Positions 39,007-57,732 of a DNA stretch of 64,000 nt are shown here, piece after piece; positions within the stretch are counted from its first letter, which is position 1; every line of letters starts with the position of its first letter. The stretch spans positions 2,790,001 through 2,854,000 of the forward strand of contig NC_013943.1 in the NCBI RefSeq assembly GCF_000025725.1, in the 5' to 3' direction. Source of the DNA: Denitrovibrio acetiphilus DSM 12809. Its GTDB lineage: Bacteria; Chrysiogenota; Deferribacteres; Deferribacterales; Geovibrionaceae. A program made the position numbers and the translations under genes. The notes below the pieces were generated by a model, which was given only the letters and a program-made list of their open reading frames with translations, was not told where the DNA came from and searched no databases.

Positions 39007-41034
39007 TTATATTAAAAGCTCTGGTGGCACGGGATGAATCAGCCCACGTTTGCGCCATCGATTTCTATTTACTAACGAATCAAACTCTACCCCATTTGAA
39101 AGTATAAGGTCATCTGCATGATCGGTAACAATGATCTGTGGACAAAAACCATTTTGTTGCTCAATCTTATTGCAGTATATAGATAACTGGCTAAACAGGT
39201 TTTCTACCGCTTGAATATCTTCGTCGACAGGTCGATCATTTTTTGTTCGTTGCTCCTTTTCCTGTTTTTTTTGTTCATCAAAGGATTCAGAATCATCACG
39301 ATTGAAGTTTGGAAAATACACCTGTGTTGGCTGATCTAAAAAGAGGAGTGACGGTATTGAACATTTGTCACCCAATTGGACAAAGTATTCATGCAATGCT
39401 AGAAAAAGAGTCACATGGCTATATAACCAATTTGCACCGCTTCCCATTGACCTTAAATAAATTTCTTCATTCTTCGGCGTTAAGTGATAGAGGTCAAATG
39501 TTTCAAAAGAAAAATGTAGGTTTATTGGTTTGTAGCTGTCTTCAAACTCAAAATGGCTACCGATTTCAGCCATATATTCATTGACCTTTTTAGAAGCATT
39601 TTCTAACTCTTTTTGTACATCGTATTTTTTTAAGTCTTTGTTGATATCATTAAGCTGTTTGTTTCGTGCTTCGATTTGCTTTTCAAGCTCAGAATCATCT
39701 GTCATATTAAGAGTATCGAGAAGCATAATTAACTTAGCCTTCTGCATCAAAATGCTTTCATACAGACTCTTTTTTTCTGTAAGTTGGTTTTCTGATTTTT
39801 CAATTTCTGTTATCTGATGGTTTAGTGTGGCTAACTCGCTTCGAACAATTTCAATGTTTCGATTTACATCAACTAACGATGATTCAAATTTTGCTTTTAT
39901 AGGACGTGCTTGTGCTAGATTTCCCGACACCTTGGTGATAGCTTGCTGTAGTTTTACGGCACTTTCTCGTAATGTATCTTTTTCTGTATGGCAAAATGGA
40001 CAGATTGAAGCAGAGATATAGACATTTTTGGGTGAACTAAACTGTTTTATATTACAAACAAAACTTTTTTCTTCTTGAATGTGTTTGTTTAATGATGCTG
40101 CATCTCTTTGCAACTTTCTTAGATCCGATGTTTTTTGAGTCCTCTCCAACTTTAACTTGTTATATCGTTGGCTAACAGCATCAGAATCATAAATAATTTC
40201 TTCTGATACAATAATTTTGTCAAGTTGATCCTGTGCATCTTGTGGATGGCGAAGTACTTGCTGCAAAGAGAGTGGTTCTTCTTTAAATCCCATAAGAGCA
40301 TACATTTGGCTCAAAACTGGGCCAATTCTTTCCTTGTACTTTTCAGCAGCACGTTTGTTCGTCTCTTTTTGACGTGCCAAACGCTTAACTTCTATACTTA
40401 GCCTTTCTTTCTCTTGTGACAAGTGAAAGTATTTTTGATCAACTAAGCCTAAAAATATCTTGGTATGATCAATTGCCTGGTCACGTTTTTCCTTTTCATC
40501 AAAACGGTAAAACAAAGCATGTTTATTAGCTACGAGATTCTGGTGCTGAAGTATAAATGATGAAAAGCTGCGTATTGATGGCGTTGCTGCTTTAGCATTA
40601 GACCGTCTATTGGCTCTAGCAGCTAGCGATTCATCAACATCATCTATATCCAGGAAAAACTCTCTTAAGTGTTTCTTGAACTCATCTAAAGGACGAAAAT
40701 AGTTACTACTGAAGTAACCGCGATCAATATCCTCAGGATTAAACGATTCAACGCGACGAAAAAAAGCTTTATTTGTGATTTCAGGATTGCGAGCGATAAC
40801 CATATCTTGATCATTAATAGAAAGAGCAACATAATAAATAGCGGCGCAATCGGTAATAATGCCCTTCGGAATGGTATTTTCACGACTGCCGAAGCAGTAA
40901 TCAAAGATTTCAATTAGGGCACTTTTACCCGTCGAGGATTTACCCGTAACAACATTTAGACCCTTTTTAAAACTAACAGGGTGTTTTATCCCATGTTTTT
41001 CAATAACGCCAATTTCATAAATTAATGTTCTCAT
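39007..41034 (-). CDS. ABC-3C system ATPase (DUF3732-like)
   Basis: A 675-residue SMC-like ABC ATPase. Walker A is GKSSTGKSAL near residue 35. Two long coiled coils flank a CPFC zinc-hook-like tip near residue 343. The signature MGSGANW and Walker B LLFLDQP follow near residue 560, and VTDHADD is the H-loop region. This matches the DUF3732 type in ABC three-component conflict systems. It overlaps the small middle gene by 4 bp (ATGA), so the three genes are translationally coupled. Confidence 0.85.
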   Translation of the reverse strand: MRTLIYEIGVIEKHGIKHPVSFKKGLNVVTGKSSTGKSALIEIFDYCFGSRENTIPKGIITDCAAIYYVALSINDQDMVIARNPEITNKAFFRRVESFNPEDIDRGYFSSNYFRPLDEFKKHLREFFLDIDDVDESLAARANRRSNAKAATPSIRSFSSFILQHQNLVANKHALFYRFDEKEKRDQAIDHTKIFLGLVDQKYFHLSQEKERLSIEVKRLARQKETNKRAAEKYKERIGPVLSQMYALMGFKEEPLSLQQVLRHPQDAQDQLDKIIVSEEIIYDSDAVSQRYNKLKLERTQKTSDLRKLQRDAASLNKHIQEEKSFVCNIKQFSSPKNVYISASICPFCHTEKDTLRESAVKLQQAITKVSGNLAQARPIKAKFESSLVDVNRNIEIVRSELATLNHQITEIEKSENQLTEKKSLYESILMQKAKLIMLLDTLNMTDDSELEKQIEARNKQLNDINKDLKKYDVQKELENASKKVNEYMAEIGSHFEFEDSYKPINLHFSFETFDLYHLTPKNEEIYLRSMGSGANWLYSHVTLFLALHEYFVQLGDKCSIPSLLFLDQPTQVYFPNFNRDDSESFDEQKKQEKEQRTKNDRPVDEDIQAVENLFSQLSIYCNKIEQQNGFCPQIIVTDHADDLILSNGVEFDSLVNRNRWRKRGLIHPVPPELLI

Positions 41035-41483
41035 CTTGGTTTCACTCCTAAAAACGCATAAATTTCGACCACAGAGTGACCTTTGAATAATTTACCTAAC
41101 TGTTCAGCTCTTTTTTGATTGATGCATGTTGAATCAGATTTATCACATGCACTAATAGATAGATTTTGTTCGTTTACGGATAACCAGTCATTTATCAAAC
41201 AATAATTAATGCACTGTTCTGTTAATTCTTGAAATTCGTCGATTCGTTCTTGTAGATCATATAGTTTTGTGCGATCCTCGAAGATCGACCACATAGAGCT
41301 TCTAATATTAGAATTGTGTATTTTTTGACCAAAGAAAGGGTGACTGCATAGCGGTATCACCAAAGAAGCAAGTAAAAGATTATTCTCTGATTCGTCTAAT
41401 GTAGCGTAAAACGAACTAAGATATGCCCCATATTCGAACGGGTTGTACTTAAGCTCATATAATGTTTCAATAATACTACTCAT
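41031..41483 (-). CDS. ABC-3C middle component
   Basis: A 150-residue helical protein beginning MSSIIETLYELKYNPFEYGAYLSSFY, with no catalytic motif. The size, position between the nuclease-like gene and the ABC ATPase, and general pattern match the middle components of ABC-3C systems, which link sensor and effector. Start is the ATG behind GGAAGG; it overlaps the upstream gene by 8 bp. The family call rests more on context than on motifs. Confidence 0.7.
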   Translation of the reverse strand: MSSIIETLYELKYNPFEYGAYLSSFYATLDESENNLLLASLVIPLCSHPFFGQKIHNSNIRSSMWSIFEDRTKLYDLQERIDEFQELTEQCINYCLINDWLSVNEQNLSISACDKSDSTCINQKRAEQLGKLFKGHSVVEIYAFLGVKPR

Positions 41484-42609
41484 TATCAACCTTCCATTTT
41501 AAGTCACGCTCTTCATCATCCATAGCATCGTGAATTAGACCATTCTTGTATTCAAGTGGAGGTATATCATTACCCATATTCAGTGGTTGCTCTCCTATGG
41601 TCTTGTTATAAAGCAATTTTGAGCTTTTAATTGGATCAGTTGCTTCAAGTTTTGCACTTGAATAGGCGAGCTTATATTTTTTGACCAATTGGTTTTGGTA
41701 ATTTATTGTCTTATCTTTATAGAGAGGGTACTCATCCAGCTGTTCAAAAAGTGAGTTTTGTAATTCAAGCCAATTGCCTACAGCTTCAGGAATCATTTCG
41801 TGGTGCTCAATCTCATTAATCTTTTGAACAAAAGCTCTGTCATTATGCTGTTCTACATCCTGTTCAGAAGCTTCAAATCCATGAAATACGGGAAAGGAGA
41901 ATTCCTTTTTACACAGCAAAGAGGTCAATTCTTCGCACTTCGCAACAAATTCTTGATATTTGATGCTCCAAGACTGTTGAGTTGCCTGTGCATATACAAA
42001 GCCAATAAGTCCATACAAGTAGCTTTTTAGGTTATTTTTGGGAATGCCTATCGGTTTTGAAAGTATTTGTTTTTCCAATTCGTCACCATTATCAGCTTGC
42101 GTATATAATGTGACCTTGCCAAGGATATTTTTTAGAAATAATTTATCTGCCGCCATGACTTCTTTTTGTAATTTAATGATTGCAGAAGGTTCTTTAGCAT
42201 TTAACTGAGCTTTAGTTCGTTCAGCAAAAATAGTTTCTAGTATTTCCAGACGTTTTTGTGCGCTAACTAAGTTCCACTCTTTTAGGCGAGTTGTGGCACC
42301 GAATACTTGTGTAGTGTGAAGTACTAAAGCTCCATATTGAGTGTGATCAAACTCTGGTGCTAACCAATTTTTTAAAGTCTTCCAAAGGTTTTCGTGATGA
42401 TCAGTTAATGGAGCTGCATAATTTTTAACTTCAGTCTGTGTTGACTGCGCAGTGCTTGATGAAAGCAAACTTACATCCCCATCTCTTTCAAACCAAATAG
42501 ACTGCCCATCTTCAAGCGAAAAGCACTTGTCTAGACCTATCAATACTTGATAATGAAAAGCTAAAGCTGTTGTTAATGTGGCATTTTTGGTTTTAGTTAT
42601 CTCACTCAT
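41476..42609 (-). CDS. ABC-3C C-terminal component with PD-(D/E)XK-like N-terminus
   Basis: A 377-residue protein. Residues about 40-67 read IWFERDGDVSL, then QTEVKNY: the acidic-strand-ExK layout of a PD-(D/E)XK nuclease. The remaining 300 residues are helical and resemble the C-terminal scaffold domain of ABC-3C effectors. It is the first gene of the three-gene set and probably the DNA-cutting effector. Start at an ATG (or the GTG just before) behind GGAG. Confidence 0.72.
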   Translation of the reverse strand: MSEITKTKNATLTTALAFHYQVLIGLDKCFSLEDGQSIWFERDGDVSLLSSSTAQSTQTEVKNYAAPLTDHHENLWKTLKNWLAPEFDHTQYGALVLHTTQVFGATTRLKEWNLVSAQKRLEILETIFAERTKAQLNAKEPSAIIKLQKEVMAADKLFLKNILGKVTLYTQADNGDELEKQILSKPIGIPKNNLKSYLYGLIGFVYAQATQQSWSIKYQEFVAKCEELTSLLCKKEFSFPVFHGFEASEQDVEQHNDRAFVQKINEIEHHEMIPEAVGNWLELQNSLFEQLDEYPLYKDKTINYQNQLVKKYKLAYSSAKLEATDPIKSSKLLYNKTIGEQPLNMGNDIPPLEYKNGLIHDAMDDEERDLKWKVDNE

Positions 42610-42732
42610 CACGTGGTCTCCAATTCATTACTTACACCATAGTTTGGCAATGTACTGTTGAGTACCGTGTAAGAATACGATAAGCCCATCCCTCAACAGT
42701 TCCTAATTGGTATTGAATGGTTTCGGCAGCAA

Positions 42733-45698: not shown

Positions 45699-47993
45699 CT
45701 ATAATTTTGATATTAATTCTATCACATTTTTTTTAAGCCGCATACCATGTGGTTTTTGTGTAAAAGTCTCTCTATGAAGGGTATTATCATTTACTCCTTG
45801 TATTAAATTACATATTTGCTTTGATGTCATATACTGTCTTCCATTATCAGCTTCTCTGATAAAATACTCCGCAAAGAAATCAAGCGTATGGATATACCTC
45901 TCTATCGTTGTTTCCGGCCCGGCATGCCCCATAAACTTTGCAAGATTATGGAATAGTGTAGACCGGCGATAACCCGTACCAATTAACTTCTGAAACCTAC
46001 CCAAGTCGCTTGGAGGTACATGTAAACTTCTAAAACCTGTAGGAAGGTATTTCTTAGCCCCCGGGTAGTAAATTAGCATCAGCTCAGTCGCCAGCCATGA
46101 ACAACAGCAATGCCTCAACGAATGAAATGAAAGTGTTTTTTCATTAAACATCTTCTTTAGCAGAGTGGCTATATTCTGTATATATGGCGAGAGATCTTGT
46201 GCGATCAGTTTGTAGTTAAGCTTACCCTTCTTTTCACCAAGACGTTTATTCCAATAATTTTTTATTATTTTTCTATGGTGTTCAGGAACCATATGCTCGA
46301 TAGGGACATTGCGCCTGCCTGCTGCTGTCTTTGATTTTGCTACTCTTATAATAGCCTCTATGTCAAAATTGAAACTGTGCAAATGCAGTTTTCCTATTTC
46401 AAAACGACGCAATCCACAATAGAAACCTAAAATGCATAACAATTCTATAATCTTATATGCTTCTGCTGTTTCATGCTTTTTAATCTCTTCTAAACACATG
46501 TCTAACTCGAGTGGAGTTATAAGGAGCGGCTTAACATTAGAAGATGTACCCTCGAGCTCCGGAGACTTCAGAAACTCATTTATGATACTTTTATCATCAG
46601 TCCGTTTCGGCAGATACCAAGCCAAAAACGCTTTAACCTTACGAGTCATATTACCGCCGGAGTGTTTTCGCACATCACGATCTACCTGAACAATATCTAC
46701 AAATAAACTATAAAGCTCATCAAAATCGTACTCACTTAAGGGTGTCTCGTCACAAACCTCCATAAGTAACGAACTAAACTTAATATAGTATGTATAAATA
46801 GTTGATACCGCTTTTTTACTGCTGAGCAAATCCATCACATACGCGACAAGCAAACGGAATGTTTCATTACCATTTAGCAACTCTTCATTCCCCTCAATAA
46901 ACCCCTTCATTTCACTCTTAATCTCCTGTTTCCTTTTCTTAGGATTAAGTATTTTCTGGACTTCTTTCATCGCTTTGACATATTGATTACTCATGCTCTG
47001 CTTAACTGGTGGAGCAAACTTCGTTTCTTCTGGTTCATCCTCTGGAACGTCATTCATACTAACACGTTTTTTTCTGTACTCAGCCCAGTTCATATGCTCA
47101 AACCTACTCTGTTTTACTGAGTAATAGTTGACCGACTTGCTTAATACCGTAGAGATCACAGGAGGAATCTTTTCTGAATTACATATTCTGGCTACCTGTA
47201 TGAGTTTAGAATAACTCATCTTTTTATCGTCAAAAAGCTTTACAAGCCACCTGCGGAAGTCATCTGATGTAAAATCTGAAAATGGACATTCATCTTTGTT
47301 TTGTTTCAATATGATTGCCAGCAGAACCTGAGCTGTTAAAGACAAAGGGACTCGTACGGATCTATTTTCAAGTTTCTTATCTTCTGCTGTTATCAGATAC
47401 GTATGCTCATATTTTATCTCATATGGCTTGTCCTCGAACTGGCTTCTTTTGACAACCCTAAGTGACTTTATGAGATTTGGAAATGTAACAAACGACTGAG
47501 TCACAATTGCAAATGCAAATGCACAGCAAAGTTCATTGTAGTAATCATTCTGCTCATAAATCTCAGCAGCAAGATATCTCGTTGCGAATTCTTTGCTGAT
47601 CTTCAAATACTTATTTCTTTGCTGAACAGCATCCTCACTAAATTTAAAAGATAATTCCCGAACCTCCTTCTTCGGTATCGAAGGTATTTTGCAGTCCAAA
47701 ATATCTTGTTCATTCAGATATTTTATAAAAGAGCACAGAACCCTTTGCGTGATATTATCTGCCTCATTTTCGTTGAGGATTTTCATTTTTTTGATGTACT
47801 TTCGGAGGCGATCTTCCTCTATTGTAACTGGCAACTTTTTATTAGTCACAAGAGGGTAAAGCACCTCATCAATTTTATGGAGAGTATCTATTTCTATCTC
47901 AATATTCTTATTCCGTTTACTATTCTGCTCACATTCCATACGCACACACAAAGCGGCGTGGTAATCACGTACACAATCAATATATATATTCAT
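45699..47993 (-). CDS. Large tyrosine recombinase (trio gene 3)
   Basis: A 764-residue protein with a tyrosine recombinase domain in its C-terminal third: Arg in GFYCGLRRFEIGKL near residue 527, HSLRH near residue 625, MGHAGPE near residue 687 and the nucleophile in ERYIHTLD near residue 698. All catalytic residues are present. The first 400 residues are unlike standard integrases. It is last in a tightly packed three-gene operon (4-bp overlap). It resembles in plan the multi-recombinase modules of Tn554-like, RIT or Gamma-Mobile-Trio elements, but sizes and order do not let me assign it. Confidence 0.82.
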   Translation of the reverse strand: MNIYIDCVRDYHAALCVRMECEQNSKRNKNIEIEIDTLHKIDEVLYPLVTNKKLPVTIEEDRLRKYIKKMKILNENEADNITQRVLCSFIKYLNEQDILDCKIPSIPKKEVRELSFKFSEDAVQQRNKYLKISKEFATRYLAAEIYEQNDYYNELCCAFAFAIVTQSFVTFPNLIKSLRVVKRSQFEDKPYEIKYEHTYLITAEDKKLENRSVRVPLSLTAQVLLAIILKQNKDECPFSDFTSDDFRRWLVKLFDDKKMSYSKLIQVARICNSEKIPPVISTVLSKSVNYYSVKQSRFEHMNWAEYRKKRVSMNDVPEDEPEETKFAPPVKQSMSNQYVKAMKEVQKILNPKKRKQEIKSEMKGFIEGNEELLNGNETFRLLVAYVMDLLSSKKAVSTIYTYYIKFSSLLMEVCDETPLSEYDFDELYSLFVDIVQVDRDVRKHSGGNMTRKVKAFLAWYLPKRTDDKSIINEFLKSPELEGTSSNVKPLLITPLELDMCLEEIKKHETAEAYKIIELLCILGFYCGLRRFEIGKLHLHSFNFDIEAIIRVAKSKTAAGRRNVPIEHMVPEHHRKIIKNYWNKRLGEKKGKLNYKLIAQDLSPYIQNIATLLKKMFNEKTLSFHSLRHCCCSWLATELMLIYYPGAKKYLPTGFRSLHVPPSDLGRFQKLIGTGYRRSTLFHNLAKFMGHAGPETTIERYIHTLDFFAEYFIREADNGRQYMTSKQICNLIQGVNDNTLHRETFTQKPHGMRLKKNVIELISKL

Positions 47994-50086
47994 TTGATCA
48001 CCTCATATCCGCATTCCGCTAATAACTTGCTTTGCATTGTAATAATCTCTAACTGAACCTCCGGCATATCAGCAAATGAAAATATGTTATTCAGTTCAAT
48101 CCCATCAGTAACATGCCCAAGCCAGTAATTTGCAATCTCATAATCAAAGTTCTTTTGCATAAGATTTGTTCGCAAAAAGTGCCTGCAAAAGTTCATGACA
48201 ATGCAGTTCCTCTCAATGCCTATTCTGCTTAGATAGCGAGATTCAACTGTACCCTTGTCGTAATATCCAAGCTTATCCTTATGACCTAGATGATAAAGAA
48301 GATCAGTCAGCTCAAAATATTCATAAACAGGTGTTATATACCCTGCAATACTGACAGTTTCTCGATATCGTTTCAGTATTCTGAATTGTTCTTTTATGTC
48401 ATCACACAAATCTACAATTCTATGCTCTTGCTTTCTTTGGCTGTCTTTATCTCTCAAAATTACATGACTGAAATCTGACGCTATCAAAGATTTTGATTCC
48501 GACGCAATACGCCGCAGGGAGCTTGTAAGCTGCAGTCCTATATACGTATAGAATGAAAGGATATTGAGCTTTTCTTTTAGCTTAATTTCTGAGTAATACA
48601 GCTCTCGTATATTCTTAAAAATATATTGCATTGTCTCTACTTCTGGTACAGCTCTACTGCCATAATTTTCATTGTAAACACACGCTTGTTCTGGAAGCAT
48701 GGTAAGCTCTGTGAAACCAAGCCTATGCAGCAGCTCGGAAACAACATCTGCAAATCGATTCCCTATATATTCTGCTGAAATACGTGTGTAAAACGTCTGA
48801 GTAAAAGAAGTTTCTGCGAATGTATTTGAAATATACGCGATAGTCAGGTCATTCTGTCCGCAGACATCAGAAGCAAATGCTCTGAAAAATTTTCTGATTC
48901 GAGCCGGTGTAATGTGCGTGTAATTAATATGATTAAATGCATTGATATGCTCTTTTATATCATTCAAAGACAGCCTTTCTGGCAACTCTATGCTCTGTAC
49001 GAGTTCACATAAAAACGCTGGCAGTACAACTTTCACCTTAAGACGAGTGTTCTGACTATATCGCGACATGCTCTTAAAGCTCTTGCTATGATATCCTACT
49101 TTATGCAGATGAAACCAATAGTAGTCCTTGTCTTCACTTAGCTTTATGCTTCGATATTTATTACCACGTAATATCTTCGACCAGTCATCGACATCAACGC
49201 CACTCAAAGCCGAAAGTATAAGAAGAGCCGTGATAGGATGCTGCCTTCTTTGATAATCATCTAACAACTTTTTCATTTCATGAAGCTGAACGACATCATA
49301 GTCATAGATGCTTACAACTCGAGATTGACGAACGAACTGCGTGGTCTTTTCATAGAAATACTTCTTTACTTCAGATGTGGGACAATATGTCCACGCGGGT
49401 ACTATATAGTTTCTAACTGAGTTATCAGCTGATACTTCAACCTGTGAATGGCTTGCACTTAAGATTTGAAGATACGAATTATCTCCACCATGACTTTTGA
49501 TCCGAAAAAACTTACGAATCCTCTTGCCACAGATTCGAGTATAAGAGTTCCCCTCCTCCCAAGCATCATGCATTATTTTATCAAAGCGCTCTATATGCTT
49601 TTCATCTTGTTCTACGATCGTATCCAGCATGTCAGAAAAGATTATCTCGTGGATATTAATCACTTTTCCTGTCCTTTGCAGATATGCATCAGCACTTGCA
49701 ACAAATACACGGGCAGCCAATGAGGCATTATAAAATCGCTGGTGGATGTTATTGGGATACTGCTTATCGAAATCAACAAGTTTATGATGTATCTCATATG
49801 CGTAATACTGATAAGCTTCGTGCTGGCAAGCATCTATATGAAATCCAATCAGTATATTCTGATCAGACTTATTAAGCGTTTTCCCTACTTCGATAGAAGT
49901 AAAATGTTCATAAAGACTCGCCACATATTCAATTGAAATATCATCTAACTCGTCATCGTCAAATGACTCATGCAGCCAGTATATTATCGCTGGTAAAAGC
50001 TCATCGTAATTCTCTTTAGCAAGTGGAAGGGGGCACTGGATAAAATCCAGTGCCTCCATGATTCTTTTAGTGACTAGCTCTTGCAT
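47990..50086 (-). CDS. Recombinase-like protein lacking the catalytic tyrosine (trio gene 2)
   Basis: A 698-residue protein. The C-terminus keeps recombinase-like features: SSLRRIASE, NFCRHFLRTNLM near residue 635 and YWLGHV near residue 655. Where the nucleophile is expected the text reads NNIFSFADM, with Phe and no Tyr. It is probably a structural or regulatory partner of gene 3. Ribosome site GGGGTGAT; the upstream gene ends 4 bp before its ATG. Confidence 0.68.
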   Translation of the reverse strand: MQELVTKRIMEALDFIQCPLPLAKENYDELLPAIIYWLHESFDDDELDDISIEYVASLYEHFTSIEVGKTLNKSDQNILIGFHIDACQHEAYQYYAYEIHHKLVDFDKQYPNNIHQRFYNASLAARVFVASADAYLQRTGKVINIHEIIFSDMLDTIVEQDEKHIERFDKIMHDAWEEGNSYTRICGKRIRKFFRIKSHGGDNSYLQILSASHSQVEVSADNSVRNYIVPAWTYCPTSEVKKYFYEKTTQFVRQSRVVSIYDYDVVQLHEMKKLLDDYQRRQHPITALLILSALSGVDVDDWSKILRGNKYRSIKLSEDKDYYWFHLHKVGYHSKSFKSMSRYSQNTRLKVKVVLPAFLCELVQSIELPERLSLNDIKEHINAFNHINYTHITPARIRKFFRAFASDVCGQNDLTIAYISNTFAETSFTQTFYTRISAEYIGNRFADVVSELLHRLGFTELTMLPEQACVYNENYGSRAVPEVETMQYIFKNIRELYYSEIKLKEKLNILSFYTYIGLQLTSSLRRIASESKSLIASDFSHVILRDKDSQRKQEHRIVDLCDDIKEQFRILKRYRETVSIAGYITPVYEYFELTDLLYHLGHKDKLGYYDKGTVESRYLSRIGIERNCIVMNFCRHFLRTNLMQKNFDYEIANYWLGHVTDGIELNNIFSFADMPEVQLEIITMQSKLLAECGYEVIK

Positions 50087-50089
50087 ACA

Positions 50090-51109
50090 TCACCCCAAAA
50101 CCGGCATGATCGCATGCTTATAAAGCTTACTCTTTGTTTTTGCACATTTGTCACTACTTGCTACACAATAGCGTCCATCAAGCACAAACTTAAATTCCTC
50201 AACGCCAATATTTGCATGGAAAACCCCATTGTTTTTAGATATCGTTGTGCGATTTTCGGTTATATCACCCTTAGGGTTTTTGCTAAAAGTATTGACGATT
50301 CCCCGGTTAAGAGAATCATTCAGATTGATGTATATAATCAGAGAGCAAAGATCAAAACAGTAAAAGTTCTGGTTTTTGGCTACCATAAACGATGTCTTTT
50401 CGATAACGTTTGACGTATCTTCATATACTTTATATTTATCTCCATAAATAGGTTTGTAATTCAACAACTCCGCTGATCCATCAGTTATCAGCTCAAGCAG
50501 CCTGATACGCCCTGAGGAGTCAAAAGACACCTCAACTTCATCCCCATCAAGACATAGCCAGTGTGCCTTTAAGACAAAATCTGCAGTTTTATGCCGCTTT
50601 TTCTTCTTACCTTTGTCCTGCGCAAAGTTGAATATTGTCGCATGTTTGAAGATTGTAAGCATGTCAGCCACTTTCTCTTTAGTTGTAGCTCCGCTGTCCA
50701 TGAGTAGCATTGCACCTTTTGCAACATCACTTTTCCAAGCATGGCGGACGGTCTCTGCGAGCATGATATTGTAGAGTCCATTATTTGACAGAACCCTCCG
50801 GTACATGTTGTCAAATAAATCCCGCAAAATCAAAGATGCAACATCCTGTGCATCTACAGCCTCCATGATTCTTACACGAACCTTTTCAACACCAACTTTC
50901 AAAGCACATAAATATGTTGCTAATCCATACACCAGATAATAGCCCCTACTATTTTCATAAACAGTTAGCTGATGCGTAACATTACGAAGTTCAAAATCAG
51001 CTTTATCGACCATCGGGGCAAAAGTCAGCTTGTCAATATCTGACCAATACTTCTTATACTCATCTAGCTTTACATCAGCTAGCATCAATAGTTGTGTTCT
51101 AAACTTCAT
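50090..51109 (-). CDS. Unknown protein (trio gene 1)
   Basis: A 339-residue protein that I do not recognise. It is predicted cytoplasmic, alpha/beta, with a KGKKKKRHKT basic patch near residue 183 that could contact DNA. No recombinase motif is visible. The start at MKFRTQLL has GGTGGTG at a fair distance; an upstream in-frame start would add 16 residues. Its position as first gene of the operon suggests it helps the two recombinase-like proteins, perhaps in DNA recognition. Confidence 0.6.
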   Translation of the reverse strand: MKFRTQLLMLADVKLDEYKKYWSDIDKLTFAPMVDKADFELRNVTHQLTVYENSRGYYLVYGLATYLCALKVGVEKVRVRIMEAVDAQDVASLILRDLFDNMYRRVLSNNGLYNIMLAETVRHAWKSDVAKGAMLLMDSGATTKEKVADMLTIFKHATIFNFAQDKGKKKKRHKTADFVLKAHWLCLDGDEVEVSFDSSGRIRLLELITDGSAELLNYKPIYGDKYKVYEDTSNVIEKTSFMVAKNQNFYCFDLCSLIIYINLNDSLNRGIVNTFSKNPKGDITENRTTISKNNGVFHANIGVEEFKFVLDGRYCVASSDKCAKTKSKLYKHAIMPVLG

Positions 51110-51179
51110 AAAACACCACCACGCACCTATATACGTAATTTCTACATACAGCAACATTCGTATGCTCGTATTTATGCAC

Positions 51180-51891: not shown

Positions 51892-52233
51892 CTATGCGCT
51901 AATCAGTGCTTCATAAGGAATATCCAGATCATTATGAAGATTTTTGATCATACGGATGGTCAGACTTCGTTTTCTATTCAGGATTTCGCTAGCTCTGTTT
52001 GCACCGCCAAGTGTTTTGGCAATATCTTTATTGGAAAGTCCCATTTGCTCCATGCGGAATTTAATCGCCTCTACAGGGTCTGGAGTGTCTATTGGGAAAT
52101 GCTCTTCTTCGTACTTTTCCACAAGGATTGACAGTATCACAAGTTCATCAAGATTCTCTTCGCTGTCCATCAGGGCATCTATTCTCGCAAGTGCTTTCTC
52201 ATAATCGGTTTCATTTTTAATCGGCTTTATCAT
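51892..52233 (-). CDS. higA: HigA-type antitoxin, orphan
   Basis: A 113-residue protein beginning MIKPIKNETDYEKALARIDALMD, with a C-terminal Xre helix-turn-helix (LSNKDIAKTLGGANRASEILNRKRSLT): the HigA plan. The start is the ATG behind AAAGG. Immediately upstream is only the tail of a higB toxin gene, so this antitoxin has lost its partner. Confidence 0.85.
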   Translation of the reverse strand: MIKPIKNETDYEKALARIDALMDSEENLDELVILSILVEKYEEEHFPIDTPDPVEAIKFRMEQMGLSNKDIAKTLGGANRASEILNRKRSLTIRMIKNLHNDLDIPYEALISA

Positions 52234-52234
52234 T

Positions 52235-52297
52235 TCAAACCTTTTTAGCGTCCACTTTGTTATACTCGGCATGTGTGCCGACAAATACGTAACAGTA
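52235..52297 (-). pseudogene. higB: 3' remnant of a higB toxin gene
   Basis: In the minus-strand frame just before higA the sequence reads CYVFVGTHAEYNKVDAKKV and a stop. This is the typical C-terminus of HigB toxins (FIGTHAEYDKID...). An in-frame stop occurs about six codons before it and the rest of the toxin is missing. It ends one base from the higA start, as in an intact higBA operon. Confidence 0.8.
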
Positions 52298-52371: not shown

Positions 52372-52872
52372 TTAACTGTTGCGATTTTTTAATTTATCGA
52401 TAAACACCTTACTTCTGAGCTTGGCTCTTTCAAGAATACTTGTGTAAGAAATAACTTCAGTATACAGGGAACCATGCTCCTTGTTCAGCCCAGTCACCTT
52501 CTGATAAGGCCTAAAAAGATAATCAAAGGATTCTGCCGATGTAAACTCAGGAAATCTTCTTTGTATAGCAAAATCATCAAACTTTTCACCAATTAGGTAC
52601 CCATAATAAGTAGTAAACCCAAATTCATCCGATGAAAAATTGTGAATCAAAGAAGCATAATCCGTAATCTGATCGATATGCTTAGCAGCATCTACTTTTG
52701 GATCTTTAAGCTCGATTATAATGCACTTCCTCTCCTTAGGAAAAAGCAAGATATCAGGCTTTTTATCATACAAGTCTTTGTCGAAATAAAAACGTTTTTT
52801 CTCAAGTTCCTCATCAAGATCATCACTAAAAAGCTTTTTGCCATTTATAGCAATATCTTTAAATTTACAATC
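52372..52872 (-). pseudogene. C-terminal part of the split GHKL-nuclease gene
   Basis: The 3' piece (166 residues) of the gene broken by IS3 element 2. It holds a nuclease-like core: KPDILLFPKERKCIIIELKDP, with D and ExK of the PD-(D/E)XK fold, followed by VDAAKHIDQITDYA. It has no start codon of its own at the joint. Removing the IS and one AGA copy joins it in frame to 54150-55766. Confidence 0.82.
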
Positions 52873-52939
52873 AGAAGAGGTGGTCCCAGAAATCTGTACA
52901 GTATGCTAAGGTGGAAAAAGCATATTGGAGGACCACACG

Positions 52940-53230
52940 ATGTCAAAAGCAAAACGTACCCGTTACTCAGCCGAGTTTAAATCAAAAGTAGCCCTTGAAG
53001 CTCTGCGAGAAGAGCTGACCTTATCGGAATTATCAGCCAAGTATAATGTTCATCCGAATCAGATTTCTAAATGGAAGAAAGAAGCCATCGAAGGGATGGC
53101 TACAATCTTTTCCAATAAGTCCAGCAAGTCGGAAGAAATATCAGAAGCAGAGATAAAGGATCTGCATGCAAAAATAGGACAACTGACGGTGGAACGAGAT
53201 TTTTTGCAACGAGCCTTCGGGAAACGGTAA
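52940..53230 (+). CDS. IS3-family transposase OrfA
   Basis: A 96-residue DNA-binding protein (TRYSAEFKSKVALEALREELTLSELSAKYNVHPNQISKWKKE) with a C-terminal coil (ISEAEIKDLHAKIGQLTVERDFL). The start is placed at the second of two in-frame ATG codons, behind GGAGG. Intact. Confidence 0.9.
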   Translation: MSKAKRTRYSAEFKSKVALEALREELTLSELSAKYNVHPNQISKWKKEAIEGMATIFSNKSSKSEEISEAEIKDLHAKIGQLTVERDFLQRAFGKR

Positions 53231-53250
53231 GTATTTCTCGGAGGAAGTTT

Positions 53251-54120
53251 ATGATAGAGAATTCTGGAAGCAAGCTTTCAATCAGTAAGCAGTGCCGTCT
53301 TCTTAGTATCAGTCGCTCCAGCTTTTATTATCAAGAGTCTGGAGAATCGGCTTTGAACCTTGAGCTTATGCGTATCATAGACGAGCAGTTTATGATGTCA
53401 CCGGACTTCGGCTCAAGACAGATGACCAAGGTTCTTCAAAGGTATGGATACAATGTTGGTCGTAAGCGTGTCCGCAGACTTATGAAGAAGATGGGAATAG
53501 AGGCTGTTTATCAGAAGCCTAAGACCAGTAATCCGCATCCTGAGCATAAAAAGTACCCATATCTGCTCAGGGGGCTGGATATAGACCGCCCTAATCAGGT
53601 TTGGTGCTCAGATATTACTTATATACCCATGAGGCGTGGATTTCTCTATCTTGTGGCGATTATGGATTGGTATAGCAGGAAAGTTCTCACTTGGAGACTT
53701 TCAAACAGCCTTGACTCTGATTTCTGTGTTGCTGCACTGGAAGATGCTCTTGAGAAATACGGGACGCCTGAAATATTTAATACTGATCAGGGGAGCCAAT
53801 TTACCAGCTATGAGTTTACACAGACTCTTAAGGATGCTGGTGTTAAAATATCTATGGATGGCAGAGGCCGCTGGATGGATAACGTCATGATTGAGCGTAT
53901 CTGGCGAACATTAAAATATGGGTTTGTATATCTCCACGCTTTCGATAACGGACACGATCTGAAGAGAGGACTGGGGAGCTGGATCAACATGTACAACACT
54001 AGAAGACCTCATTCTTCTCTGGGAGACAGGACACCATATGAAGCTTATAACGGATTAGAGATTCAGATTTGGGAAAAAGATGATAGAATGACTGAGAGTT
54101 TACACCTTATTTCAGTCTAA
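53251..54120 (+). CDS. IS3-family transposase OrfB
   Basis: A 289-residue integrase-core protein. An HTH_21-like N-terminus (SISKQCRLLSISRSSFYYQ) precedes the DDE core in WCSDITYIPM, FNTDQGSQFTS and NVMIERIWRTLKY. It has its own ATG and GGAGG ribosome site, 20 bp after OrfA. Intact. Confidence 0.92.
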   Translation: MIENSGSKLSISKQCRLLSISRSSFYYQESGESALNLELMRIIDEQFMMSPDFGSRQMTKVLQRYGYNVGRKRVRRLMKKMGIEAVYQKPKTSNPHPEHKKYPYLLRGLDIDRPNQVWCSDITYIPMRRGFLYLVAIMDWYSRKVLTWRLSNSLDSDFCVAALEDALEKYGTPEIFNTDQGSQFTSYEFTQTLKDAGVKISMDGRGRWMDNVMIERIWRTLKYGFVYLHAFDNGHDLKRGLGSWINMYNTRRPHSSLGDRTPYEAYNGLEIQIWEKDDRMTESLHLISV

Positions 54121-54149
54121 AAACTGTGCAGGATATGGGGACCACCTCT

Positions 54150-55766
54150 AGAAGAACCTTGAAAATATACATACTCTTCACTAAATAACCAAAGATCGCT
54201 ACCAGACGGATCTTGAGTATTTTGTTTAAAAATAAGGCTATGCAGTAAACTCTCATCACACTTTTTATCTGACTTCAACTTACTTAGAGTGTATTCAAAC
54301 AGTTCTAAAACTGCAATCCGCCTAGAAATATATCTAGACAAACTCTCTTTATTAACAGCTGGAATATGTTTTGAAATATTTTTAGACGCTTTTTTCAGTA
54401 GTCTTAAATAGTCCTCTGACTTAGGTGACAAATTTTTAATATAATCGAGCTGTTTTTTTATACTCGCATCTTGTCTCGCTGCTTTCACGGCATTAACTCT
54501 ATACACTTTTTTCAATATCTCTCTATCATTATCTTTTGGAGAAATATCAGCTTCAGCAATCGACTCGTCATCAAGTAAAAACATGTCTTTAAGAGCATTT
54601 AAATCTTGGTCTCTTTCAATAACTTTATCTCTAAGTTCTGAAAATTTTTCTAGAATAATACTACATGACTGAGACTGAATATCTTCTAATAAGACGACCT
54701 CTTGATAAGCAAACAAGGACATTTGTCCGCCCTGTCCTTGTGCCAAATTAATGAACTGCTTTTTATCATAAATTTCAAGTTCACCTCTTGTATCATCAGA
54801 ATGCTCATCAAGATAATCTCCAGAAATTAAAAATAGATAGCGTTTATCATTAATTGTGTCCGTTTCTGACAGAATCTTTAAGTCAATTTTATTTTCAGCA
54901 ATCTCTCCTTTACAAGTCAGCTTCAATTCATTCTGTGCTAATATCTCCTCATCTATTACAAAGCAAGTTAAAGACATTTTTGTTGATTCATCTGTATAAA
55001 GGACATCTTGGTTTTCGGCGGAAAATTTTGAGTAAGAGACATCTATGTCTGTTTTCAACTTTTCCTCAGGAATATCCGTATCAGATATTAGATCACTATC
55101 AATCAGCGTCTCATCCAAATATTCCTCAAGCTTTAACATAGGTAAAGAATCTCGATTCAGGCAAAAAGTTAAAAGAAAGTGATTTATGAGTTTATTCTTT
55201 ATAAAAGCAATATTAAGCTTGTGGTATTCATACTCATCTTTCTGATCCAATAACTGAGTAAATTCCACTTTACTACCTTTACCTATACCTTCCTCTATTG
55301 CTTCAGTCTTTATATGATACACAAGGGCATTTTTCTTTTTGAAATCTCCTTCTTTTGACATTTTGAAGGTTCGTCTTATAAGCTTACCATTCTCTTCATA
55401 ACAACTTTCAAAATTAGCCCACCTAAAAAACTTTACATACTGCAAGCGTCCAGAACCTTTATTTAATTTTCCTTTTCTGTCATCCTTGTAATTTAAAAAT
55501 CTCTCCCAATTTTCTTCATTAAAACCAACACCTGAATCACTAATTTCAATCTTATTAAAAATAGAATCATCTGGATCAGTAGGGTTAGTTCTTTTATAAA
55601 GTCGAATAATGATCTGATTTTCATGCACTGGATTAGGCAGTGATTCGTAAGAATTAACAAAAGCTTCTATAATAGGTCTTAAGTAATCATTGCTCTTTTT
55701 TATTTCACTCTTAAGTACGCCTTCATAATGTATACCCAAAGCTTTCACATATGTGTTATCTTTCAT
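54150..55766 (-). pseudogene. N-terminal part of the split GHKL-ATPase/nuclease gene
   Basis: The 5' piece (539 residues) of a large gene. It has a GHKL ATPase fold: the E-x-x-x-N helix as IEAFVNSYESL, then ISDSGVGFNEENW and a LNKGSGRLQYVKF loop, as in HSP90/MORC-like proteins. A long helical section follows. The present frame runs a few codons into the IS and stops. Joined to the 3' piece it would give a 705-residue ATPase-nuclease fusion, probably a defence protein. Confidence 0.85.
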
Positions 55767-56117: not shown

Positions 56118-56951
56118 TTAGTAGACACTTTTCTTGTTTATATCATAGTTCTTTTCAAATTCAACTGGAGATAGATATCCGTTGTTTCCGTGACGCCTAA
56201 TCGGATTGTAAAACATCTCGATATAGTCAAAGATATCCCGCCTTGCTTCTTCTCTATTTTTATAGATCCTTCGCTTTATTCGCTCTCGCTTCAAGAGCTG
56301 GAAAAAGCTCTCAGCAACAGCATTATCGTAACAGTTTCCTCTCCTGCTCATACTGCATGTAAGGTTGTGTGTCTTTAGAAAGCTTTGCCACTCAGAGCTT
56401 GTATACTGGCTGCCCTGATCAGAATGTATGATCACATTATTATCAGGCTTTCTGCGCCACACAGCCATAAGTAGAGCCTTTAAAACTATATCTGAATGCA
56501 TCCGATGTTGCATTGACCATCCGATAATCTGACGAGAGAATAAATCGATCACTACTGCCAGATACAACCAGCCTTCATAAGTGCGAATGTAAGTAATATC
56601 TGTTACCCAAACCTTATTAGGCTCGGATACTGCGAAATCCTGCTGAAGATAATTATCTGCTATATGAGATACATTGCCTTTAGAATATCTTGGCTTACGG
56701 TAGCCGACCTGAGACTTGATGCCAGCCAGCCTCATGAGCTTATGTACACGATTCTTGCCGCAAGATTCACCCAATTCCATCAGATCAGTATAAATCTTAC
56801 GGTAGCCATATACTCCGCCGCTCTCTATCCAGTATTGCTTTACGAGTCCCATTAGGTGTTCATCACGCTTCTGCCGTCTACTTTTAGGCTCTTTTACCCA
56901 AGAGTAGTAACCACTAGGATGAACACGCATAACTGAGCAGAGCCTTGTCAC
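56118..56951 (-). CDS. IS3-family transposase OrfB
   Basis: A 277-residue integrase-core protein with DDE residues in WVTDITYIRTYEG, HSDQGSQYTS and AVAESFFQLLKRE. The frame extends upstream of the first ATG and joins OrfA at an A6G slippery site (complement at 57023-57029), so an OrfAB fusion is expected. Intact. Confidence 0.92.
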   Translation of the reverse strand: MTRLCSVMRVHPSGYYSWVKEPKSRRQKRDEHLMGLVKQYWIESGGVYGYRKIYTDLMELGESCGKNRVHKLMRLAGIKSQVGYRKPRYSKGNVSHIADNYLQQDFAVSEPNKVWVTDITYIRTYEGWLYLAVVIDLFSRQIIGWSMQHRMHSDIVLKALLMAVWRRKPDNNVIIHSDQGSQYTSSEWQSFLKTHNLTCSMSRRGNCYDNAVAESFFQLLKRERIKRRIYKNREEARRDIFDYIEMFYNPIRRHGNNGYLSPVEFEKNYDINKKSVY

Positions 56952-56989
56952 AGCGTGGTCAGTTCGGTGTTCATAAATGAATGCGTACC

Positions 56990-57268
56990 TTACTGGGACT
57001 CTTTGGCAAAGTACGCTGCGGCCTTTTTTAAGATGTCCCTCTCTTCAGTGACTCTACGTAGCTCTTTCTTTAAACGGTTTATTTCGGATTGATGATCTGA
57101 CTGGATTTTATAATCGGAATTGTCTGAACCATATTTCTTAATCCAGTTGTAAATACTGCTGGGGTTGACGTCAAGCCTAGAAGCTACGTCATTCACTTTG
57201 TGGCCTTGTTCTGTGATTTGTTTGACTACTTCAATCTTAAATTCATCTGTGTAACGTTTGCCATTCAT
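56990..57268 (-). CDS. IS3-family transposase OrfA
   Basis: A 92-residue HTH protein (YTDEFKIEVVKQITEQGHKVNDVASRLDVNPSSIYNWIKKYG) with a coiled C-terminus (INRLKKELRRVTEERDILKKA). The ATG is preceded by GGAG. Intact. Confidence 0.9.
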   Translation of the reverse strand: MNGKRYTDEFKIEVVKQITEQGHKVNDVASRLDVNPSSIYNWIKKYGSDNSDYKIQSDHQSEINRLKKELRRVTEERDILKKAAAYFAKESQ

Positions 57269-57330
57269 GGAGCACTCCTGATAGTTGTAATTTATAACTC
57301 AGAAGTCTCTACAAAACTAGGGGCGATTCA

Positions 57331-57732
57331 CTGCTGGAGGACTATGCGACAAAGCTGAAAGACAGCTTCCCTAAGCACTTTATAGGATTTGGCGACGACG
57401 GGCTGGCTGCTGTGCTGATCCGCACTTTGAAAGACAAAGGGGTGACCATCGCAACAGCAGAGAGCTGTACAGGCGGAATGATCGGCGCAGACCTGACATC
57501 TGTGTCTGGCTCAAGCGAAGTGTTTATGGGCGGGATCATCAGCTACAGCAATGATGTGAAGGAGCGCATACTCCGAGTGCCGAAGAACATCATGGTGAAC
57601 CACGGCGCAGTGAGCGAAGAGACAGCAAAGGCTATGGCTGTTGGCGCTGCGAATAATATGCGCACCAGAGCGATGAAAACAGCATTGCGAGAGATGACAG
57701 ATCTGTTGAAAAAGTTAAATTGTGCAAGATAA
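57331..57732 (+). pseudogene. cinA: cinA fragment truncated at both ends
   Basis: From the first base after the IS the frame reads LLEDYATKLKDSF, then the CinA C-terminal deamidase region (VTIATAESCTGGMIGADLTSVSGSS, FMGGIISYSNDVKERIL, VSEETAKAMA). The N-terminal CinA domain is missing. After AVGAANNM the expected VSVTGIAGPDGG block is replaced by an unrelated tail of about 20 residues and a stop. It is probably not functional; full CinA is about 410 residues. Confidence 0.85.

Follow-up and report, generated by a model that had tools for sequence, protein, structure and literature searches.

Iyer, Abhiman and Aravind described in 2008 a family, paraMORC3, in which a GHKL ATPase is combined with a conserved C-terminal RE-fold nuclease, and they suggested that its genes, which are sometimes standalone, might in that form function outside restriction-modification (RM) (PMC2292703). 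The V. cholerae WASA study of 2025 reported that VcSduA, a GHKL ATPase and a PD-(D/E)xK nuclease in one protein, stops phages, that either the ATPase substitution E27A or the nuclease substitution K557A abolishes protection, and that protection occurs without evident cell suicide (PMC12137116). Its authors class VcSduA as type I-D Shedu, following a scheme of Gu et al. 2025 as cited in that paper (PMC12137116). Classical Shedu senses DNA ends (PMC12904381).

The window analyzed here is a 64,000-nucleotide stretch of Denitrovibrio acetiphilus DSM 12809 (NC_013943.1, positions 2,790,001 to 2,854,000), and positions given without a prefix are those of the window. With a probability of roughly 0.85, we consider that it holds a recently IS-inactivated gene of the paraMORC3 family whose product had the architecture of the single-protein anti-phage system VcSduA. 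This class of single-gene defence is already known, and what is added is an IS-broken member. The locus is thereby placed in a recently validated single-gene defence class that is missed by PADLOC 2.0.0, NCBIfam, and the Pfam Shedu model.

A nuclease gene split by an IS3-family element

The split gene lies on the minus strand. Its N-terminal piece (54150–55766, 539 codons) encodes a GHL ATPase, a putative transducer-like domain, a helical middle domain, and the first part of a nuclease, and its C-terminal piece (52372–52872, 166 codons and a stop) encodes the PD-(D/E)xK core (PD-x14-ExK) and a C-terminal helix. Between them, on the plus strand, is an element of 1274 bp (52876–54149), flanked by two AGA copies of a target-site duplication (TSD) (52873–52875 and 54150–54152), the second of which is, on the minus strand, the codon of Ser539. 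Removing the element and one AGA yields a 2118-bp frame of 705 codons and a stop (539 + 166) with no internal stop. The N-terminal ORF at present runs from 55766 to 54117 on the minus strand and encodes 549 aa, the last ten codons (RGGPHILHSF) and the stop being supplied by the end of the IS (54117–54149, minus strand). The first ATG, GTG, or TTG start in the C-terminal piece is a TTG at 52773, which omits the initial 33 residues.

When the genome was searched with a profile built from 17 intact homologues on plasmids, the N-terminal piece matched model positions 9–509 (E 9e-53) and the C-terminal piece positions 527–667 (E 1e-15). By BLAST, the same three proteins, from Prevotellaceae, Spirochaetia, and Prevotella ruminicola (L051, L052, and L054), were the top three matches of the N-terminal piece and, independently, of the C-terminal piece, with identities of 32, 33, and 30% for the former and 45, 42, and 41% for the latter. 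In the alignment to L051, the N-terminal piece stops at residue 546 and the C-terminal piece begins at 547, with no residue lost or duplicated; the Ser just before the joint is invariant (32 of 32 rows), and all but one of the 32 rows (31) have Asp or Glu next. The complementary profile positions, the concordant top matches, the adjacency in L051, and the invariant Ser at the joint argue, beyond chance, that the two pieces were formerly one gene. The GC content of the locus is 32–34% versus 40% for the whole window, which is consistent with acquisition. The preliminary description had read an IS insertion into a GHKL-ATPase/PD-(D/E)xK nuclease gene and had joined the 539 and 166 residues in frame by taking out the element and one AGA. 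We reproduced that joint, and the uninterrupted homologues across it on which this reading depended were found, full-length ORFs spanning the joint in 74 of the 80 relative loci fetched.

The transposase proteins that it encodes place the element in the IS3 family: orfA (52928–53230, plus strand) matches HTH_Tnp_1, and orfB (53251–54120, plus strand) matches HTH_21 and the rve integrase core of the transposase. Its termini are inverted repeats starting AGAGGTGGTCCC, and these, together with the 3-bp TSD, are further features of the family. The genome contains seven matches to the element, amounting to about six copies, all about 88–92% identical to the window copy, which is the only one of them with an evident TSD. 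Since the TSD is evident and the host gene is undecayed, with all catalytic residues kept, the insertion into the window gene is probably recent. One of the other copies lies within, and interrupts, an apparent Tn7-type transposase gene, as read by eye (L016:4008–5018).

Domain architecture and class assignment

The ATPase motifs of the N-terminal piece (E34, N38, D77-x-G79-x-G81, and G104-x-G106-R107) are invariant in all 32 alignment rows and are kept in the window protein. The nuclease residues are divided between the pieces: E505, H509, W526, and S539 lie in the N-terminal piece and D-x14-ExK in the C-terminal piece, and E505, D, and ExK are conserved across all rows, which bears out the DxnExK nuclease core that had been described at the C terminus. 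Of the relatives scanned, 19 of 33 match HATPase_c, and the C-terminal piece gives weak HSDR_N/PDDEXK_4 matches. AlphaFold models had a pLDDT of 84 for the window N-terminal piece and 87.7 for the intact homologue L051, whose model has an alpha/beta domain at the nuclease position. Foldseek matched the ATPase part to TRAP1/Hsp90, SMCHD1, TopoVI-B, MutL, and MORC2 with modest TM-scores (0.2–0.54), and alignments of the model to MutL, TopoVI-B, and Hsp90 covered about 300–530 columns, extending past the ATPase domain into what may be a transducer-like domain. The ATPase is GHL-type, and the intact homologues are single polypeptides in which a helical middle region lies between a GHL ATPase fold and a C-terminal nuclease. 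Where the ATPase had been called HSP90/MORC-type, the Hsp90- and MORC2-like fold stands, but the MORC-specific GhXhhpXXRhl motif is absent from both window pieces and from all 92 relatives searched for it.

The window family has the features published for paraMORC3, to which it is likened here by description, that family having been defined from sequence alone: an N-terminal GHKL ATPase, in this case with intact ATP-binding motifs and no MORC-specific motif, a C-terminal RE-fold nuclease carrying residues of the E-D-ExK type, a patchy distribution, and often standalone genes. MutL, MORC, and Hsp90-type GHL ATPases have the GHL fold in common with it, but they carry no fused PD-(D/E)xK nuclease. 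Compared through its published residues, VcSduA has the same GHKL plus PD-(D/E)xK plan in a single protein, and equivalents of E27 and K557 are conserved; in a V. fluvialis homologue the matching residues are E27 and K556. The window protein differs in lying on a distant branch, with only 20–30% identity to VcSduA-like Vibrionaceae proteins, in giving no SduA_C match, and in being broken by the IS.

Classical Shedu likewise has a C-terminal PD-(D/E)xK nuclease, alignable to that of the family across the whole domain, but it is without a GHKL domain, and in V. fluvialis the classical Shedu and the GHKL-nuclease are separate adjacent genes. Comparison of the nuclease with one single Shedu sequence was uninformative; it was resolved by profile–profile comparison, in which hhalign aligned the family nuclease profile with nine Shedu nucleases over the whole domain (E 6.6e-7, probability 85%), while a negative control with the N-terminal part gave E 0.08 and probability 0.4%. 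The Pfam model SduA_C (SduA_C/DUF4263) matched neither the C-terminal piece nor any relative in two scanned sets of 17 and 33, where hits were accepted up to E 0.1 for the C-terminal piece and the larger set; a classical Shedu scored 1.3e-25 on the same model. The domain model therefore gives no support for calling the gene a Shedu. Because none of the members scanned matches SduA_C, despite the profile-level homology of the nucleases, we file the gene as paraMORC3 and do not claim the Shedu domain definition for it; the comparison fits a paraMORC3 protein that would have acted like VcSduA. Searches of Pfam, NCBIfam, and PADLOC 2.0.0 gave no informative match for the N-terminal piece. The earlier impression of a design outside the standard named defence systems was overturned, since the design matches paraMORC3 (PMC2292703) and shares its domain plan with VcSduA (PMC12137116), and that impression reflects a gap in the profile libraries.

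Relatives and genomic neighborhoods

A scan of about 85,000 genomes produced 124 confirmed relatives. The intact homologues are proteins of 640–790 aa, and a two-gene form cut at the position of the window's IS was found in none of the 80 homologue loci; other truncated homologues (L092, L107, L080, and L122) have no evident IS. The family tree contains sequences from the Pseudomonadota, Bacteroidota, Spirochaetota, Bacillota, Actinomycetota, Cyanobacteriota, Planctomycetota, Acidobacteriota, Synergistota, Verrucomicrobiota, and Saccharimonadota. The family is broad, with deep branches from at least 10 phyla that are mostly far from VcSduA. The window gene clusters with L052, L051, and L054 (support 100/99), and these closest intact relatives are suited to asking whether the branch shares the VcSduA mechanism. 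Scans of phages and viruses with the N-terminal piece or alignment A2 detected no relatives, nor did a first genome-contig scan with the same two queries, and the sequences in alignment A1 diverged too much to serve for a pattern scan. In another genome of the phylum there is a 287-aa mini version (L032:1225–2088), in which the ATPase start is fused in frame to the whole nuclease and about 370 middle positions are missing.

Neighbors at unannotated loci were longest-ORF calls. Type I RM genes adjoin homologues, with or without classical Shedu, and other neighbors include DRT4, CBASS-like genes, and GajB-type helicases, with GmrSD-like genes next to the L046 and L049 homologues. Beside the three closest relatives we found PARIS-like AriA/AriB and a type ISP RM (L052), RloB (L054), and a type II restriction enzyme (L051). 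Clustering for recurrent neighbors gave no conserved partner gene. In Pseudoalteromonas piscicida, the GHKL-nuclease gene is followed by a DRT4 reverse transcriptase gene with overlapping start and stop codons (L003:9956–13707); the reverse transcriptase directly downstream was considered as a partner gene and rejected, DRT4 being a known defence type of its own and no partner gene being conserved. On a V. fluvialis plasmid, a type I RM operon includes a classical Shedu gene and, directly after it, a GHKL-nuclease gene (L005:8631–12025).

Type I RM and Lamassu-type LmuABC genes also lie close to the split gene. LmuA, LmuC, and LmuB (Lamassu; ABC-3C MC3 and DUF3732) are encoded at 39007–42612 between type I RM genes. 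At 45699–51157 on the minus strand are three consecutive overlapping or adjacent ORFs of 764, 698, and 355 aa, the first a tyrosine recombinase, which together resemble a recombinase trio. An ORF for a HigA-like antitoxin with no evident toxin partner adjoins the broken gene (51892–52284), and another IS3-family element (56118–57732) lies beside an apparently shortened CinA-type ORF (57412–57732; CinA read by eye).

Probable loss of function and a second family member

Relatives suggest how the intact protein may have worked. It would dimerize through its GHL domain, and ATP-driven opening and closing of the resulting clamp would sense or hold some feature of DNA that arises in the course of phage infection and then free the C-terminal nuclease to cut, so that phage DNA would be restricted directly. 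The great distance in the tree from the VcSduA-like branch calls for caution in reading the protein as defence. The IS sits inside the nuclease domain, past the conserved E/H helix but ahead of the D-ExK strands, and since it parts the E/H/W/S section of the nuclease from the D-ExK core, leaving a complete active site in neither fragment, the broken gene is almost certainly dead; in the present strain, the defence would thus be lost.

The genome's only other GHKL-nuclease member (C1:658611–659834, within C1:658605–659969; L015:8605–9969) has been cut short by a copy of the same IS that is 90% identical to the one in the window gene. It belongs to a different, distant branch, where its nearest relatives are L119 and L031. 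A search of the genome with the family profile did not find its nuclease half. To the right, beyond the IS, comes an IS256-type transposase; because this copy has also kept no TSD, the truncation could have arisen by rearrangement at a later time.

GHL enzymes also work in repair, as MutL does, and the intact protein might have been a repair or DNA-processing enzyme, a MutL-like ATPase with an endonuclease carried on mobile DNA, instead of a defence; we regard this as improbable. The GHL fold is common to MutL and TopoVI-B and several plasmid copies are standalone, but the family is patchy across many phyla and plasmids, defence genes recur as its neighbors, the sister genomes have no full-length homologue, and VcSduA, which shares the plan, acts against phages directly (PMC12137116). 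Less probable still is that the pieces remain functional, the 549-aa GHL protein with its IS tail and the C-terminal fragment complementing each other, or the GHL part alone being regulatory. Both pieces are stop-free and retain every signature residue, and the second paralogue likewise retains its GHL half; against this, the nuclease domain itself is severed, with E505/H509/W526/S539 on one side and D-ExK on the other, translation of the C-terminal piece could start only at the TTG, at the cost of its first 33 residues, none of the 80 homologue loci has a two-gene form cut here, and the clean TSD suggests an insertion so young that there has been little time for decay.

A recent inactivating insertion into a VcSduA-like defence gene thus remains our preferred reading, and a separate matter is why both members were hit. 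It is conceivable, though doubtful, that the two GHKL-nuclease defences, on their distant branches, were lost by selection against a costly nuclease, autoimmune or blocking the uptake of useful DNA, with the same IS lineage as the tool, and not through random IS traffic. The truncation of the second member by the same IS, which is present in only about six copies, and the missing nuclease half would fit such selection; IS inactivation of cas genes and of other defence systems is on record (PMC10359306), and heterologously expressed Shedu can be toxic (PMC12904381). Two hits from about six copies are striking, but the idea is post hoc, and defence islands gather IS elements anyway; the remaining copies of the IS occupy a transposon gene, intergenic DNA, or sites next to other IS elements; the IS256-type flank and the absent TSD leave room for later rearrangement at the second member; and the other nearby defence loci (IetAS, Lamassu, and type I RM) seem intact. 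The pair of paralogues hit by this IS offers a modest hint about what such nucleases may cost. The IetAS match is a subtilase and AAA ATPase pair (L015:12719–16140) next to the truncated second member.
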